A DNA stretch of 64,000 bases from Candidatus Gastranaerophilales bacterium (lineage in GTDB: Bacteria; Cyanobacteriota; Vampirovibrionia; Gastranaerophilales; Gastranaerophilaceae), in NCBI GenBank assembly GCA_944323165.1, contig CALURK010000002.1:62001-126000 (forward strand), given 5' to 3'. A program made the translations under genes and the position numbers. The stretch's first letter is position 1. Each line of letters begins with the position of its first letter. Below the pieces are notes generated by a model. That model ran no database searches. It worked only from the letters and a program-made list of their open reading frames with translations, and had not been told where the DNA came from. Of this stretch, positions 3,234 to 34,552 are shown in pieces.

Positions 3234-3875
3234 ATGGGAATTACTATTGCACAAATTCAGGATGCAAAACTGAGAGAGTTAGCGGCAAAAGTTGACGGTT
3301 CATTCAAAGGAGAGACAAAAGGAAACAAAGTACTTGATGATTGCGAAATGGAAATTTTTACATCACAGGTTAAATCTGCCGGACTGGACGCTGAATACGA
3401 GGAGTTTTTGAAAATTCATAAACAAACTCAGGCAGCAGGAAAGGAGTTTGATGTTAATAAGGCAGCAACGGAACAAACAAGAATAGAAGAAAAAATTAAA
3501 ACCGCTAAAGAAAAAATCGCTAATTTACGTGAAAAACTTGCAGAAATAGAAAATCGTCCGGAATCTGCTAAGAAAGAAAAATGTAAGGCTATAGGCTGTT
3601 GGAGCGGTTTTGGTGTTGGTGCCATACCTGGAACTATAGCTTCTATCGTAATGGAAACTTTTATTCCGGCTGTTGTTCTGTCAGGGGCAGGTGCATTAGT
3701 CGGTCTAGGTATTGGTTTAGGGGTCTATTACTTAACCAGATCTAAAGACGAAGAAAAAGCTTACAGCGAAAACAATAAAAAAGAATATGCACAAACTCAG
3801 GCGGCATTGAAAGCAGCAGAGCAGGAATTACAGAAGAGCAAATTAGAATTACAACATTTTATGAATACTCTGTAA
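3234..3875 (+). CDS. Unknown protein with coiled coils flanking a hydrophobic hairpin (copy 1)
   Basis: I do not recognise this family. The 213-residue product starts at an ATG with an AAGGAGG site. The first 62 residues are almost identical to those of the next gene and include a stretch like a degraded EF-hand loop (ETKGNKVLDDCE, residues 27-38). Residues 70-112 are a charged, coiled-coil-like helix. Residues 118-168 are glycine-rich and hydrophobic, enough for a membrane hairpin, and end in YYLTRSK. The last 40 residues (TQAALKAAEQELQ and on) are another amphipathic helix. It is the first of a tandem pair downstream of a (GTA)17 tract. No signal peptide is apparent. A membrane-associated or secreted-effector-like scaffold is possible; function is unknown. 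Confidence 0.8.
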   Translation: MGITIAQIQDAKLRELAAKVDGSFKGETKGNKVLDDCEMEIFTSQVKSAGLDAEYEEFLKIHKQTQAAGKEFDVNKAATEQTRIEEKIKTAKEKIANLREKLAEIENRPESAKKEKCKAIGCWSGFGVGAIPGTIASIVMETFIPAVVLSGAGALVGLGIGLGVYYLTRSKDEEKAYSENNKKEYAQTQAALKAAEQELQKSKLELQHFMNTL

Positions 3876-3954: not shown

Positions 3955-4602
3955 ATGGGGATTACTATTGCACAAATTCAGGACGCAAAACTGAGAGAGT
4001 TAGCGGCAAAAGTTGACGGTTCATTCGAAGGAGAGACAAAAGGAAACAAAGTACTTGATGATTGCGAAATGGGAATTTTTACATCTCAGGTTAAAGCCGC
4101 CGGACTGGACGCTGAGTACGAGGAGTTCTTGAAAATTCATAAACAAACTCCGGCTGCAGGAAAGGAATTTGACGTTAGTACGGCAGCTGCGGAAAAAACT
4201 AGATTAGAAGCAAACGTTCAAAAAGCTGAAGCAAAAGTTGCTAATTTACGTGAAAAACTTGCAGAAATAAAAAATCGTCCAACTGCAAAAAGAAATGATT
4301 ATAGGGCAAATGGGACAATCTATGGTGCGTTGTCCTCAGGTACAGTATTTGGCGGTTTACTTGCTCTAGGCTCTAGGCATAATCGTATCAGCAAGTTCTT
4401 TTGCGGCGGAATGCTTAGCGGACTTGTCGGCGGTGTTTGCGGCGGACTTATCGGTATGGGGATTTATTACTTGACCAGATCTAAAAAAGAGAGCGAAAGC
4501 AATAAAAATGAATATGCACAAACTCAGGCGGCATTGAAAGCTGCTGAACAGGAATTACAGCAGAGCAAATTAGAATTACAACATTTTATGAATAATCTGT
4601 AA
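3955..4602 (+). CDS. Unknown protein with coiled coils flanking a hydrophobic hairpin (copy 2)
   Basis: This 215-residue protein is a tandem paralogue of the preceding one and starts with the same AAGGAGG spacing. The N-terminal 62 residues differ at only about four positions (for example K25E and E40G), and the C-terminal 40 residues are nearly identical. The middle differs: its hydrophobic part (residues 120-172) is longer and reads GTVFGGLLALG, then GLVGGVCGGLIGMGIYYLT. Conserved ends around a diverged glycine-rich membrane segment point to gene duplication followed by divergence or exchange of the middle. The stretch after each copy (AATTTTATATACATACAAC) is also duplicated, so the repeat unit includes intergenic DNA. 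Function is unknown. Confidence 0.8.
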   Translation: MGITIAQIQDAKLRELAAKVDGSFEGETKGNKVLDDCEMGIFTSQVKAAGLDAEYEEFLKIHKQTPAAGKEFDVSTAAAEKTRLEANVQKAEAKVANLREKLAEIKNRPTAKRNDYRANGTIYGALSSGTVFGGLLALGSRHNRISKFFCGGMLSGLVGGVCGGLIGMGIYYLTRSKKESESNKNEYAQTQAALKAAEQELQQSKLELQHFMNNL

Positions 4603-6867: not shown

Positions 6868-7755
6868 TTAGTCTGCATAACAGCTAAGAGAATAACTGCC
6901 TCTTAGTTTATTTATAGCTCTCATTTCTGTTTGTCTGATACATTCTTTTGTAACACCGAATAATTTTCCGATATCTTCTAATGTTGTTCTTGCAAAATTT
7001 TCCAAACCAAATCTCATTTTTATTACGGTTTGTTCACGTTCTTTTAATGTAGAAACGACGTTTGCAATTTCTTTTTTTAATTCTTCATACTCTATAGATT
7101 CTTCAATATTTGTATTTTCATCTTCTAAAACATCTGCTACATTTAATTCGCTTCCGTTTTTGCCGTCAAAGCTGCCTTCTATTGATACTGTTGTTGTGTA
7201 AGCTGATAAGAATGTGTCAATTTTTTCAGGTTCCAAATTCATCTTCTCTGCAACATCTTTTGTTGAAACTTGACAGTTGTATGCTCTTTCCATTTCTGTT
7301 TTGATTTTAGAAAATTTTGATAAGGTTTCTTGAATATATACAGGAATTTTCATACAGTATGATTGCTCTGAAATTGCTTTGAACATTGCTTGTTTTATCC
7401 ACCAGCTTGCGTAAGTTGAAAATCTGTATCCTAATTCCGGGTTGAATTTCTCAACAGCTATCATTAAGCCTAAATTCCCTTCTTGAATTAAATCAATCAT
7501 CGGAAGTTTTGAAACGTGAATTGCTTTTCTTGCAATAGTTAAAACCAATTTTAAATTAGATTGAACTAATATTTTTTTTGCCTCTTTGTCACCTGTCTTT
7601 GCAAGTCTTGCAACTTCTTTTTCTTCATCTGCATTAAGTGATTTGAACGAATTAACTTTTCTAACGTAAGACATCATATCATTACCGTTAAATGATACAA
7701 AACTGTTTCTTGAAGGGTTGGTTGTTTTTTTCATTTGAATAGCTGTTTCTTTCAT
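6868..7755 (-). CDS. RNA polymerase sigma factor, sigma-70 family (group 2-like)
   Basis: This sigma subunit directs RNA polymerase to a promoter class. Region 2 spans about residues 62-130 and includes DLIQEGNLGLMIAVEKF and YRFSTYASWWIKQA, the -10 recognition and melting elements. Region 3 follows (ISEQSYCMKIPVYIQE). Region 4 ends with the helix-turn-helix TLEDIGKLFGVTKECIRQ, the -35 reader. It is 295 residues, lacks the long N-terminal region 1.1 of a primary sigma, and its region 4 differs from RpoD consensus (FGVTKECIRQTE in place of GVTRERIRQIE), so it is probably an alternative sigma factor. The N-terminus has the SFVSFNG stretch seen in other proteins here. It is transcribed alone. Confidence 0.9.
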   Translation of the reverse strand: MKETAIQMKKTTNPSRNSFVSFNGNDMMSYVRKVNSFKSLNADEEKEVARLAKTGDKEAKKILVQSNLKLVLTIARKAIHVSKLPMIDLIQEGNLGLMIAVEKFNPELGYRFSTYASWWIKQAMFKAISEQSYCMKIPVYIQETLSKFSKIKTEMERAYNCQVSTKDVAEKMNLEPEKIDTFLSAYTTTVSIEGSFDGKNGSELNVADVLEDENTNIEESIEYEELKKEIANVVSTLKEREQTVIKMRFGLENFARTTLEDIGKLFGVTKECIRQTEMRAINKLRGSYSLSCYAD

Positions 7756-16071: not shown

Positions 16072-16219
16072 TAATTTTCTCCTTACTAACTTAATAACTC
16101 AATTATATCATGTATTCAATTTAAAACGATTAACTATTACTAATTGTAAATTTTTTTCTGTTTGGTAGCAAAAATTTAATTTATAAGATTTAAAATAACA
16201 TATATTAAGGAGAAAAGAA

Positions 16220-19162
16220 GTGATATTAAGTGTAAATTCGGCAGAAAAAGTAGTTCCTATAAATTATTCAATAAAGAAAACTAAATCCCAACAAAGCAAC
16301 AATTTACCTCAAAATTCAGATCAAAAAGATATTCAAGGCATCCCACGAGGGTATGTATCTTTTAGAAAAGCAGAGGAGAGTAAATTACATTTAACAGATG
16401 ATGCTCAAAGGCTTCTGGAGAGCGCAAAGCTTATCGCAAAAACTTATCATCATAAGGAGATTTTGCCTCAACATATTATCCAAGCAGAACTTGATATAAC
16501 GAGATTTAATATCGAAAACTTGGGTGATGAAACATTAGACAGTGGTTCTGTAGAATATGTATCTTCGCTTAACCACATGGCAAATGATTATTCTAAAACA
16601 AATTTGGTTGCAAGTGCAAAAAATAGGAAATTTTTAAATGCGGTATTAGATAATTTAGAAGAAGATAACAGGAAACTATTAGAGCAAACAGAAGTTGATG
16701 AAGAATATCAAGAAGAACCAAAGCTATCAAAACATATTGAGTCAAATCTTCAAAAGCTTGTAGGTCAGGTTCCTGCTATTAATGCTTATGTTTTACTGGC
16801 TACGGCAATTAATACGCTTACAAGTGAAGGAAACTTATATGCTTCTGATTTTTTAAAGAGTTTAGTGAGTTTTGCTGCATATAAAAATAGTGATGATATT
16901 AAAAAAAGTTATATGAAAGCTTATGATGCAAAAGCAATAGATGCCTGGAATAAACTTGCACTTGGCTCAAATATGATTATTACATATACAAATCCTAAAG
17001 AAGTTGATAGGATGACAGCAAGTATAATAAAGACTATGAATCAGCCAAAGTACGGTAATTTTAATAGTAAGAATACACTGCTTTACGCTATGTCTGAAAA
17101 TATAAATGATAAATTGCTGTTGCAAGAATTAGTTAATCTAAAAGATATTTATCCTGAAAAAAGAAAAATAATTATGGTCGATATGGGAAATTTAATTGCT
17201 AATTCTGTAAAAGGGAAGCATGATGAGTTAGAAATTTTCACAAATCTTTTCAGTATCATAGGTAACTCCGATGATAATTTGAAATTAATGTTGTTTCAGG
17301 ATAAAGAAAGTTATTATCAATTGAAAGGAGAACCATCATTTGCTCCTTTTTACAATAATATGGTAACGTATGCCATTCCTCAAATTCAAACGTATGAAGC
17401 AAGAGCTATGTTAAATAAAAAAATGCTTCAAAATGTAAAAACTCCTTTTACAAAAGAAGCAAAAGACAGGGCAATTTATCATGCATCTAATATAAATGGT
17501 ATATTCCCGGATAAAGCTGTAGATTTGATGAAAAGAATTTCTGAGTATTATGGTGAGTCAAGAAAGAAAATAACTTCAAAAGATGTAGATGAGTTTGCAC
17601 AAATTGGGTATGAGTTGTTTAGCAATAATGATAACAATAAATCCAGTATAATATATGATACAGGAAAGACTTTGGATACATTATACGGTAAAGAAACTAC
17701 TAAAAAGGACGTAGAAGCTATAATAAGGCAGATAAAAACCGGCATTATAGGAACTAGAGGTATAATAATTTCTTCAAAGGATAATGAGGCGGGTTCAGGC
17801 AGAAGATACACAGCAGAAACCATTGCTGGCGAAGCAAAAATTCCATTTGTAGCAATTGATGCTGCAGAGTTCGCGACTTCTGAAAGGGATACTGATGGGC
17901 TTATCGTTGACACCCCTAAGAAACAAATGAATCAGATCTTTGCTGAAGCAAAGAATGCTGCACGCCAAAACCAGTATAAGACTGCGATTGTATATGTTAA
18001 TAATTTTGAAGAATTAGCTTTCTCAAGTCCGTACTTACCTGGTTATAAGCAAGCTATGTCTCAATTGACAAAGGAAATGCAGAAAGCTGTACAAGAGGAT
18101 GTAAGTATATTGGTTATAGCATCTACTGACGAAGACTACGCACCGTTAATTCCTGTATATGTAAGAGGTTTTAACCAGTCTTTGTCTGTTGATTCTCCTG
18201 CTTTTAACAAACGTGCAAGAAAAGAAGTTTTGGTAAATAAGATAAATGAAGTTAGGTTGCCGTTGGCTTATAAAACAGCAGAAGAAAAAGATGCTATTAT
18301 GGATAGGTTGGTTAAGCTGACTGAATACATGTCTTTTGTTGAAATAAAATCTTTGATAGATAAGACAATTCAAATTATGTATGAAAGAAATAAACAAAAA
18401 GCATCAATTGGTGATTTTATAGAAGCGTATTTGCAACTTGTAACAGGAAGAACTTCGCGTCCGGAGATGCCGGAATTTAATAAACGCGCAACAACTTCTC
18501 ATGAGTGCGGACATGCAACTAATTTGGAAGTGATGAATGATATTTTGAAAAGAAAGGGGAAGCCTTGGCATCAATTTAGGAATGTCAATTTTATAACTCT
18601 GGATCCGAGAGGAGGTTTCTTAGGTGCTGTATTTGAGGATAGAGCTGATAATACGGACTATCCTTTTGAAGCGATGTTTACTGGTCTAGTTTGTTCTTAT
18701 GGCGGGTATTCTTGTGAAAAACTTTTCTTTGGTATGGATGGTTCAAGCGGAATCTCTCAGGATTTAGCTCAAGCCACTTCAGCTGCAAAAAGAGGGATTG
18801 AATATTTCGGCTTTGGGTTTAATACAGGAAAAGTTTCTAATGCGGCTAAAATTCAATCATCTACTTTTTCTGAAAAAGTTTATAAGGATATGGATGTAAT
18901 TCTTACAAATGCTAAAGTTGCATCTGACTTAATTACTGAAACCTATAAAAAGTTTAATGAGTGGTTTACGCAGAAGTATTCTAAGCTTATTGGAACAGAT
19001 GATTGTATGGTCGACGGTGAAGTATTTAGAAAACTCCTTTCTAATTGGAAGAAATCGTTGACTATTGATAAAAAAGAAGAAGTTAATATTATGGAAGATA
19101 TGATTATGGATATCATAGATTGTTCTAAAAAAGGTATAAAATACGGACATTTAAAAAAATAA
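16220..19162 (+). CDS. FtsH-like membrane-free protease with degenerate AAA+ domain and Clp-N-like N-terminus
   Basis: The 980-residue protein starts at GTG with an AAGGAG site. Residues 50-90 look like a Clp N-domain repeat (LTDDAQRLLESAKLIAKTY, ILPQHIIQAEL). Residues 510-660 align with the FtsH AAA+ module, but the P-loop reads SKDNEAGSGRRY (about 519-530) without the GKT lysine and the Walker B acidic pair is replaced (YVNNFEEL). Residues 745-960 match the M41 protease: zinc ligands H761 and H765 with catalytic E762 in TTSHECGHAT, and the third ligand Asp in GISQDLAQAT. No membrane helix is visible, unlike FtsH. It is probably an ATP-independent or partner-dependent zinc protease. It is transcribed alone and ends at a strong terminator. 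Confidence 0.75.
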   Translation: MILSVNSAEKVVPINYSIKKTKSQQSNNLPQNSDQKDIQGIPRGYVSFRKAEESKLHLTDDAQRLLESAKLIAKTYHHKEILPQHIIQAELDITRFNIENLGDETLDSGSVEYVSSLNHMANDYSKTNLVASAKNRKFLNAVLDNLEEDNRKLLEQTEVDEEYQEEPKLSKHIESNLQKLVGQVPAINAYVLLATAINTLTSEGNLYASDFLKSLVSFAAYKNSDDIKKSYMKAYDAKAIDAWNKLALGSNMIITYTNPKEVDRMTASIIKTMNQPKYGNFNSKNTLLYAMSENINDKLLLQELVNLKDIYPEKRKIIMVDMGNLIANSVKGKHDELEIFTNLFSIIGNSDDNLKLMLFQDKESYYQLKGEPSFAPFYNNMVTYAIPQIQTYEARAMLNKKMLQNVKTPFTKEAKDRAIYHASNINGIFPDKAVDLMKRISEYYGESRKKITSKDVDEFAQIGYELFSNNDNNKSSIIYDTGKTLDTLYGKETTKKDVEAIIRQIKTGIIGTRGIIISSKDNEAGSGRRYTAETIAGEAKIPFVAIDAAEFATSERDTDGLIVDTPKKQMNQIFAEAKNAARQNQYKTAIVYVNNFEELAFSSPYLPGYKQAMSQLTKEMQKAVQEDVSILVIASTDEDYAPLIPVYVRGFNQSLSVDSPAFNKRARKEVLVNKINEVRLPLAYKTAEEKDAIMDRLVKLTEYMSFVEIKSLIDKTIQIMYERNKQKASIGDFIEAYLQLVTGRTSRPEMPEFNKRATTSHECGHATNLEVMNDILKRKGKPWHQFRNVNFITLDPRGGFLGAVFEDRADNTDYPFEAMFTGLVCSYGGYSCEKLFFGMDGSSGISQDLAQATSAAKRGIEYFGFGFNTGKVSNAAKIQSSTFSEKVYKDMDVILTNAKVASDLITETYKKFNEWFTQKYSKLIGTDDCMVDGEVFRKLLSNWKKSLTIDKKEEVNIMEDMIMDIIDCSKKGIKYGHLKK

Positions 19163-33377: not shown

Positions 33378-34490
33378 TTAAGCTTCGGAAACTTCTTTTA
33401 AAAATAATTCATGCATTTTTCTTATTTTATCACCTTCATGGACAGCACCGACTTCTAAATCATTGTTTTGATATTTCTTAAAAATTTCTTGTAAAAATTT
33501 TATTCTTTCAGGATTTGTTTTTTTGAGTTTGTTAATTGTGTCTACACAAAAATTTTCCTCATACATAGATGGAATTTCATAATTTTTCATTGCCTCATAA
33601 TATTTTTTTGCTTCATCATATAACTCAGATCCTTTTTCAATAGAACCTTTTCTACTTTGTAGACTTCTTAGCTTAACGCAATCTTTTCTTAACATATCTT
33701 TATGGCGTTGTATATATTTGTCAATATCAACTTTTGATAAATCGCCGTACTTTTTGCCAGTTTGTTCAAGACAATGTGCGGGATTATTTTTTAGCTTTCT
33801 TAACATTGGTTGAATTTCTGCATTGAGAAATTCTTCCTCCCCAAAAGCTCTGTATACCAGATCTTTTTGTCGAAAATGCTCCAGCTCGTGACGCATTGTA
33901 GCTAAAACATCTGTTTCGCTTGTTTTTCCTCCTTGCATGTATAGTGTAATTGTTTTTAAATCCATACTTCCGCCGTTTGCAAAATCTGTACTGATTTTTA
34001 TATTAGGTGTATCATAAGCGAATTTGTATCCTAAATCCGAACACATTTTATCGTAACTTCTTCCAAGCCATTGATCTATTTCTAATCCATTCATATCTTT
34101 GAATAATTCTGCATAATTTTTATCAATTTTTCCGCTTGAAACTAACTCCTCAAGTTTTTTTGCTTGAACATCTGTCAAAGCTTTAGGTTTTACTTTCCCC
34201 CGACTTGCAATCCATAATCCTATGCCGGCAAGTGCTGCGATTCCTGTTCCAATAAGTAACGTTTTGCCGACGGAAGAACCTTGCTTTTCTTGTTTTAGAT
34301 TTTTAATTTTATCAGCAGCTGAAATGGTTGAATCTTTGTATGATATATTATTTTGTACGGGATTATTGTTATAGCTGCTGTTACTGCTAAAATTAGGAAT
34401 AGTATTTGCTGTACCCTTGAATAACAATGGATACATTGGATATGCACAATTAATATTGTTAAAATAACCGTAGTTTATTGGTGATAACAT
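33378..34490 (-). CDS. Membrane-anchored HExxH protein (candidate metallopeptidase)
   Basis: I start this gene at the ATG at 34490, since the TTG at 34538 precedes the likely promoter. The 370-residue product has a polar N-terminus with LLFKGTAN, one membrane helix (GKTLLIGTGIAALAGIGLWI, about residue 80-100) and a soluble domain carrying HELEH in MRHELEHFRQKD (about residue 201). That zinc-protease motif and the preceding TSETDVLATMRH context fit a metallopeptidase. I recognise no family beyond that. The C-terminus is helical and lysine-rich. It has its own promoter of the shared block and is divergent from the M16-like gene. Zinc ligand three is not assigned. Confidence 0.6.
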   Translation of the reverse strand: MLSPINYGYFNNINCAYPMYPLLFKGTANTIPNFSSNSSYNNNPVQNNISYKDSTISAADKIKNLKQEKQGSSVGKTLLIGTGIAALAGIGLWIASRGKVKPKALTDVQAKKLEELVSSGKIDKNYAELFKDMNGLEIDQWLGRSYDKMCSDLGYKFAYDTPNIKISTDFANGGSMDLKTITLYMQGGKTSETDVLATMRHELEHFRQKDLVYRAFGEEEFLNAEIQPMLRKLKNNPAHCLEQTGKKYGDLSKVDIDKYIQRHKDMLRKDCVKLRSLQSRKGSIEKGSELYDEAKKYYEAMKNYEIPSMYEENFCVDTINKLKKTNPERIKFLQEIFKKYQNNDLEVGAVHEGDKIRKMHELFLKEVSEA

Positions 34491-34517
34491 AAAATAACCT
34501 ATAGACCTTTCTAACCT

Positions 34518-34552
34518 TATATACAATAAGTTGGACAAGAAGTTAAAATTGC
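34518..34552 (-). promoter_or_regulatory. Shared promoter-like block, copy at the HExxH gene
   Basis: On the minus strand GCAATTTT starts at 34552 and ACTTATTGTATATAAG at 34531, offset 21. The context AAAAAGGCAATTTT is the same 14-mer as at 39588. Its position favours the ATG at 34490 as start, 41 bases downstream. Confidence 0.6.

Follow-up and report, generated by a model that had tools for sequence, protein, structure and literature searches.

An Hsp100-FtsH chimaeric M41 protease with two pseudo-AAA modules in Gastranaerophilales gut bacteria

In the usual view, AAA+ proteases require ATP for feeding their cutting chamber. FtsH (TIGR01241; M41 in Pfam and MEROPS) has an AAA fold followed by an M41 peptidase with an HExxH motif and an Asp as third zinc ligand, and the Hsp100 proteins ClpC and ClpB carry Clp_N, D1 and AAA_lid_9. 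MtaLonC, from Meiothermus taiwanensis, is a Lon-like protease that forms a hexamer and lacks ATPase activity; it still binds nucleotides and degrades unfolded, not well-folded, proteins (PMC3391209). In plants and algae, the FtsHi proteins (Ycf2-FtsHi motor) are degenerate FtsH paralogues kept by selection (PMC9020784). The protein described here, from a lineage of gut bacteria that are non-photosynthetic relatives of cyanobacteria, is an Hsp100-FtsH M41 protease in which both AAA modules are pseudo-AAA.

Within the window, by which we mean the whole stretch of 64,000 nt analysed, the protein is encoded by a 980-aa ORF with a GTG start and a clear ribosome-binding site (AAGGAGAAAA, at 16207). 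The layout is given in Table 1. Pfam matches Peptidase_M41 at residues 752-924 (50.7 bits against a cut-off of 29.9) and AAA at residues 525-638 (31.6 bits against 21.2). The score with the FtsH equivalog model TIGR01241, 71.7 bits, lies so far below the 600-bit cut-off that the protein is better named an Hsp100-FtsH chimaera than FtsH. Its maximal 19-residue hydropathy (KD19) is 1.35, as against 2.59 in the resident FtsH, which indicates that a membrane helix is absent. A regular ftsH with an intact AAA domain is present on another contig of the same genome (G000:C19), and two Clp-type unfoldases are encoded besides it. A separate 452-aa frame (G000:C2:176130-177410, in L210) has four Clp_N matches and no space for an AAA domain, and represents a free-standing multi-Clp-N protein.

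Table 1. Positions in the window of the chimaera gene, its promoter-like element and the segments of its product.
Feature	Position	Strand	Evidence
Conserved promoter-like element: TTGTAAAT..., TAGCAAAAA (16166-16174), then TTTAAAAT	16144..16196	+	Precedes nearly every gene of the family
Hsp100-FtsH chimaeric metalloprotease, 980 aa	16220..19162	+	ORF; 80 relatives; close-pair dN/dS about 0.05-0.17
Disordered N-terminal leader with invariant Phe48 (GYVSFRK; SYITFK, INFKG in relatives)	16220..16366	+	pLDDT about 30-40, residues 1-50
Clp N-domain-like helical segment, residues 57-150	16388..16669	+	hhalign match (P 2e-6) with the N domains of ClpC/ClpB; Foldseek
Pseudo-AAA module 1, ClpC/ClpB D1 type, without Walker A, residues 231-478	16910..17653	+	D1 profile A4; Foldseek Hsp100
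Pseudo-AAA module 2, FtsH type, residues 481-748	17660..18463	+	Pfam AAA, 31.6 bits; compared residue by residue with FtsH and relatives
M41 peptidase domain, residues 750-975, with H761/E762/H765/D848 zinc site	18467..19144	+	Pfam M41 (50.7 bits); zinc-site residues each 80/80

In the C-terminal half, the zinc motif HECGH occupies residues 761-765; the residue aligned with the third FtsH zinc ligand is Asp848. The P-loop of the second AAA module reads SKDNEAGSGRRY (519-530). Having EAGSGRR in place of the FtsH GxPGTGKT, it lacks both the Lys and the Thr of Walker A (R528 and R529 are found instead), and in the Walker B strand (IVYVNNFEE, 590-598) the Asp and Glu are changed to N594 and N595. 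Residues were counted over 80 sequences, namely the 980-aa protein and 79 relatives. H761, E762, H765 and D848 are each kept in 80 of the 80, as are the TLDPR substrate strand and the GxG of the pseudo-P-loop (G525, G527). The position of the Walker A Lys is occupied by Arg in all sequences but one (79/80; Lys in L088); the Walker B Glu is found in none, with Asn there in 72. Also absent are the arginine fingers (RPGRFDR in FtsH, VRGFNQ here and other residues in relatives) and the FVG pore loop 1, whose place is taken by a variable insert. Foldseek confirmed the FtsH fold of this half, with E values down to 1e-19 to FtsH structures and target-normalised TM-scores up to 0.79. In the AlphaFold model, the P-loop (519-528) lies between a beta strand (513-518) and a helix (528-539), and Walker B falls at the end of strand 588-594; the topology offers no alternative Walker motifs elsewhere in the second AAA, so that the nucleotide site is rebuilt by no other residues. 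The near-invariant P-loop Arg could mean that a nucleotide or other ligand is still bound and used; by analogy with LonC, the GxGR loop may bind its ligand without hydrolysis. A preliminary description of this locus had claimed an intact M41 zinc site, a dead FtsH-type AAA+ domain and no membrane helix, all of which are borne out here; it would have been refuted by a Walker site restored from other residues or by erosion of HExxH among orthologues, but the model shows no such site and the orthologues all keep the motif.

The front half is of Hsp100 type. In profile-profile comparisons, residues 57-148 align with the N-domain of ClpC and ClpB (P 2e-6). Searched as a single sequence, the 980-aa protein has no Pfam match to Clp_N or D1, and PF02861 matches in 3 of 63 relatives, at best with 4.4e-4. 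Among 76 sequences, the D1 profile A4 picked residues 263-411 of the resident ClpC (E 1.8e-8) and no decoy; extra weak matches across the class fall in frames of ClpC length. The D1 of deeper relatives aligns with ClpC D1 (E 5e-8), and the chimaera family aligns with those relatives (E 2e-12). None of 21 aligned D1 sequences has a P-loop. When the AlphaFold model of residues 50-478 (pLDDT 92, pTM 0.84) was submitted to Foldseek, all 50 of the matches listed were ClpB, Hsp104, ClpA or ClpC. Global TM-scores were low (0.3-0.4 by query), which suggests that the domains of the front half agree better than their relative placement; similarly, the pTM of 0.49 for the whole-chain model makes the placement of the two halves relative to each other uncertain. 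No Clp-type D2 was encountered, the second AAA being of FtsH type. With a front half made of a Clp N-domain and a dead D1, the protein has two dead AAA+ modules fused to one intact protease. Hence the Clp-N-like segment of the preliminary description is real by profile, if weak by single sequence, and belongs to a whole Hsp100-type half; rather than a Clp-type adaptor domain that was kept, as had been thought, this half (N-domain and dead D1) replaces the FtsH membrane segment.

Set against FtsH, the chimaera has in common the succession of AAA fold and M41 domain, the HExxH motif and the Asp ligand, and differs by lacking membrane helices, Walker A Lys and Thr, Walker B Glu, arginine fingers and FVG pore loop, and by having the Hsp100 front half and an M41 insertion of about 20 residues with GKPW. 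With ClpC and ClpB it shares the N-domain and the D1 fold with its lid (Foldseek, profile); unlike them, it has no P-loop in D1, its second AAA is FtsH-type in place of a Clp D2, and its protease is its own, fused. LonC joins an AAA-like part that lacks ATPase activity to an active protease, and it is by this analogy that an ATP-independent mode is proposed here; however, LonC is of Lon type with one AAA-like domain, whereas the chimaera has a zinc M41 domain and two dead AAA modules that differ in ancestry. It may be seen as an independent LonC counterpart in another protease family, and as the reverse of plant FtsHi: kept by selection as these are, it loses the ATPase and keeps the protease, while FtsHi lose the zinc site (PMC9020784). 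No description of a Gastranaerophilales FtsH, a Clp-FtsH chimaera or a soluble FtsH was found in the open-access papers searched, nor did we find a family model for this architecture, in agreement with its earlier designation as new for the FtsH family.

Relatives were gathered by profile search of genome contigs, using a 14-sequence alignment as query, which yielded 80 loci. All but one, which a contig end truncates, have frames that are open over about 980-1060 aa. Essentially all come from Gastranaerophilales-type genomes (labelled Gastranaerophilales, Melainabacteria or Cyanobacteria); two MAGs labelled Acinetobacter and Clostridia group inside the chimaera family and are probably mislabelled. 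The 80 ATPase-dead sequences form a single clade (SH-aLRT 100). Strong matches in a survey of the class were limited to the order, with a patchy distribution there, and a survey of the phylum at E 1e-12 matched 44 of 292 genomes, all from one family. In the genus of the window genome, a strong match is present in 16 of the 29 genomes surveyed; absence from nearly half of them argues that the role of the gene is not housekeeping. Seven genomes of the genus have ssb adjoining prsA with no chimaera gene between them. No functional gene neighbour was identified: in its genus the chimaera gene stands by itself, flanked by ssb and prsA, and in other genera it lies elsewhere. For close pairs, dN/dS (NG86) is about 0.05-0.17 over the whole gene, and the second pseudo-AAA is the most tightly constrained domain in most pairs (omega mostly 0.02-0.08), and is no decaying remnant. 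The gene is not decaying and is under strong purifying selection.

Four soluble relatives from other families of the order (L017-L020) have an intact FtsH AAA, with GxPGTGKT and an IDE Walker B. L018 is shorter than L017, L019 and L020 and has no D1; the long M41 insertion is common to the chimaera, L017 and L018. Three further soluble FtsH-type proteins, from genus g11, have an altered Walker B beginning with IND or IDD (L196:415-3114, L197:416-3055 and L021; IDDFD or INDFD). Two genomes of this genus, G045 and G054, also encode an intact-ATPase soluble paralogue; the window genome has none. The altered forms of g11 possibly correspond to a halfway stage of ATPase loss or to members of a mixed ring. 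The FtsH ATPase is still intact in distant soluble relatives, so that its loss in the chimaera is probably derived. On the simplest reading, D1 was already dead when the FtsH ATPase was lost; as long branches blur the deep tree, we do not claim the exact order. The Clp N-domain was seen only in the ATPase-dead clade.

The promoter-like element (TTGTAAAT, TAGCAAAAA, GTTTAA) accompanies family genes even at about 30% protein identity, mostly some 40-110 nt before the start codon. No heat-shock CIRCE element was found upstream of the chimaera gene. In the leader, Phe48 is invariant in 66 aligned sequences. A total of 1.264 Mb of the window genome was scanned with a matrix made from the family element; a score of at least 13 together with a ribosome site selected 20 genes, including that of the chimaera. 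Among the products are alpha-amylases, one metallophosphatase/5'-nucleotidase and one HNH protein, and many have no Pfam match; Phe motifs in their leaders are of the kind NFKG, SFGA and VNFRS. Copies of TAGCAAAAA followed after about 12 nt by GTTTTA lie a short way ahead of genes for products with the disordered Phe-motif leader at L232:3564, L247:5897 and 14177, L225:9345, L260:390, L246:11765, L212:16401 and L204:15257, among others.

By rules chosen in part after these matches had been seen, F[KRGTS][GASNKER] occurs within residues 6-70 in 17 of the 20 element-linked products, against 285 of 850 (p 4e-6). A start of M-x-I type is seen in 14/20 against 137/850, and the two features together in 13/20 against 52/850 (p 3.5e-11). 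There was no excess of the same Phe motif at residues 106-170 of these products. With the rules fixed, two other genomes gave 6 of 8 (G108, p 0.04) and 2 of 6 (G044, not significant). The link was weaker with a first, loose regular expression for the promoter (10/30 against 143/1241, p 0.0017); the matrix by itself gave 15/26 against 291/1270 (p 1.7e-4), and the stronger link above came with the ribosome-site filter and broader rules. A column-shuffled matrix gave no matches. Across the genome as a whole, the Phe motif is modestly enriched in N-termini (z about 2.6). It is conceivable, if doubtful, that the chimaera is the resident protease of a lineage-specific programme of gut Gastranaerophilales, whose genes have one promoter type (TAGCAAAAA...GTTTTA) and whose products have a disordered Phe-motif leader that sorts them to a shared, possibly ATP-poor place. 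In this gut lineage, which is common and little studied, the promoter and leader set may bring to light a sorting or regulatory system not yet described.

With both AAA motors dead and the cutting site kept, the chimaera probably digests proteins without ATP. We favour, at a probability of roughly 0.6, a soluble Hsp100-FtsH fusion whose AAA modules do not hydrolyse ATP and which works as an ATP-independent zinc M41 protease, as in LonC. From the sequence we infer that ATP-driven unfolding has been lost. Most likely, the two dead AAA modules would assemble into a static ring for positioning and gating the M41 sites. Substrates would be recruited by the Clp-type N-domain, and proteolysis would depend on zinc and not on ATP. 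As no ATP-driven pulling is possible, substrates would have to be already unfolded, damaged or flexible. An active zinc site, the formation of a ring and this mode of substrate choice are all predicted. A heteromeric ATPase partner is possible.

The same dead-AAA scaffold might alternatively serve a dedicated processing protease, whose targets would be a single partner or a handful of them, perhaps co-regulated leader-carrying proteins, in place of unfolded protein in general. Such a role would fit the promoter-like element and leader type that the chimaera gene has in common with about 20 genes of the genome, its patchy and dispensable occurrence, and the strong constraint on the pseudo-AAA, as expected of a specific docking surface. 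We consider it unlikely, as no gene neighbour is conserved beyond the ssb/prsA context of the chromosome, the leader on the chimaera itself fits co-localisation as well as substrate recognition, and the regulon association was replicated only in part. The pulling might also be supplied by a separate unfoldase (ClpC, ClpB or FtsH) on which the chimaera docks, or with which it mixes, as a protease arm. The Hsp100-like front half is consistent with this, as are the FtsH and the two Clp-type unfoldases of the genome and the coexistence, in both G045 and G054, of an intact-ATPase soluble form with a second form of altered Walker B. However, the window genome has no such intact paralogue, and loss of the arginine fingers and pore loop 1 makes the chimaera unfit as an active ring member. 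Clp unfoldases, moreover, dock their protease by loops on D2, but here the second AAA is of FtsH type. This arrangement, too, we consider unlikely.

Both AAA modules being already pseudo, the protein might be a pseudo-enzyme altogether, a scaffold or sequestering factor whose zinc protease is unused; plant FtsHi are indeed FtsH paralogues that have been retained although their protease does not work (PMC9020784). Conservation of the four zinc and catalytic residues and of the TLDPR strand in 80 of 80 relatives makes this very unlikely. Loss of the Walker motifs, and absence of the gene from the same site in sister genomes, could finally point to a decaying ftsH pseudogene or an assembly artefact, whose probability we regard as negligible given the same losses across a deep clade; a pseudogene or erosion is ruled out by the open frames of the 80 relatives together with the dN/dS values. 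A conserved family with the FtsH cutting site kept and both AAA modules disabled asks what role the AAA+ ring has besides ATP use (gating, assembly, docking), and the question is sharpened by the tightest selection being on the dead FtsH-type module. The intact-ATPase relatives in the same order make the transition testable by residue swaps.

Three other loci of the window may be mentioned. A sigma-70-type factor with a similar leader (SFVSFNGND) is encoded at 6868-7755 (-) and is a candidate regulator. At 33378-34538 (-), a protein of 386 aa that has the HExxH motif RHELEH, and LLFKG in its N-terminal part, is possibly a second leader-carrying metalloprotease. Two near-identical paralogues, each about 214 aa long (MGITIAQIQDAKLRELAAKVDGSF...) and hydrophobic in a middle segment, lie in tandem at 3234-3875 and 3955-4602 (+).
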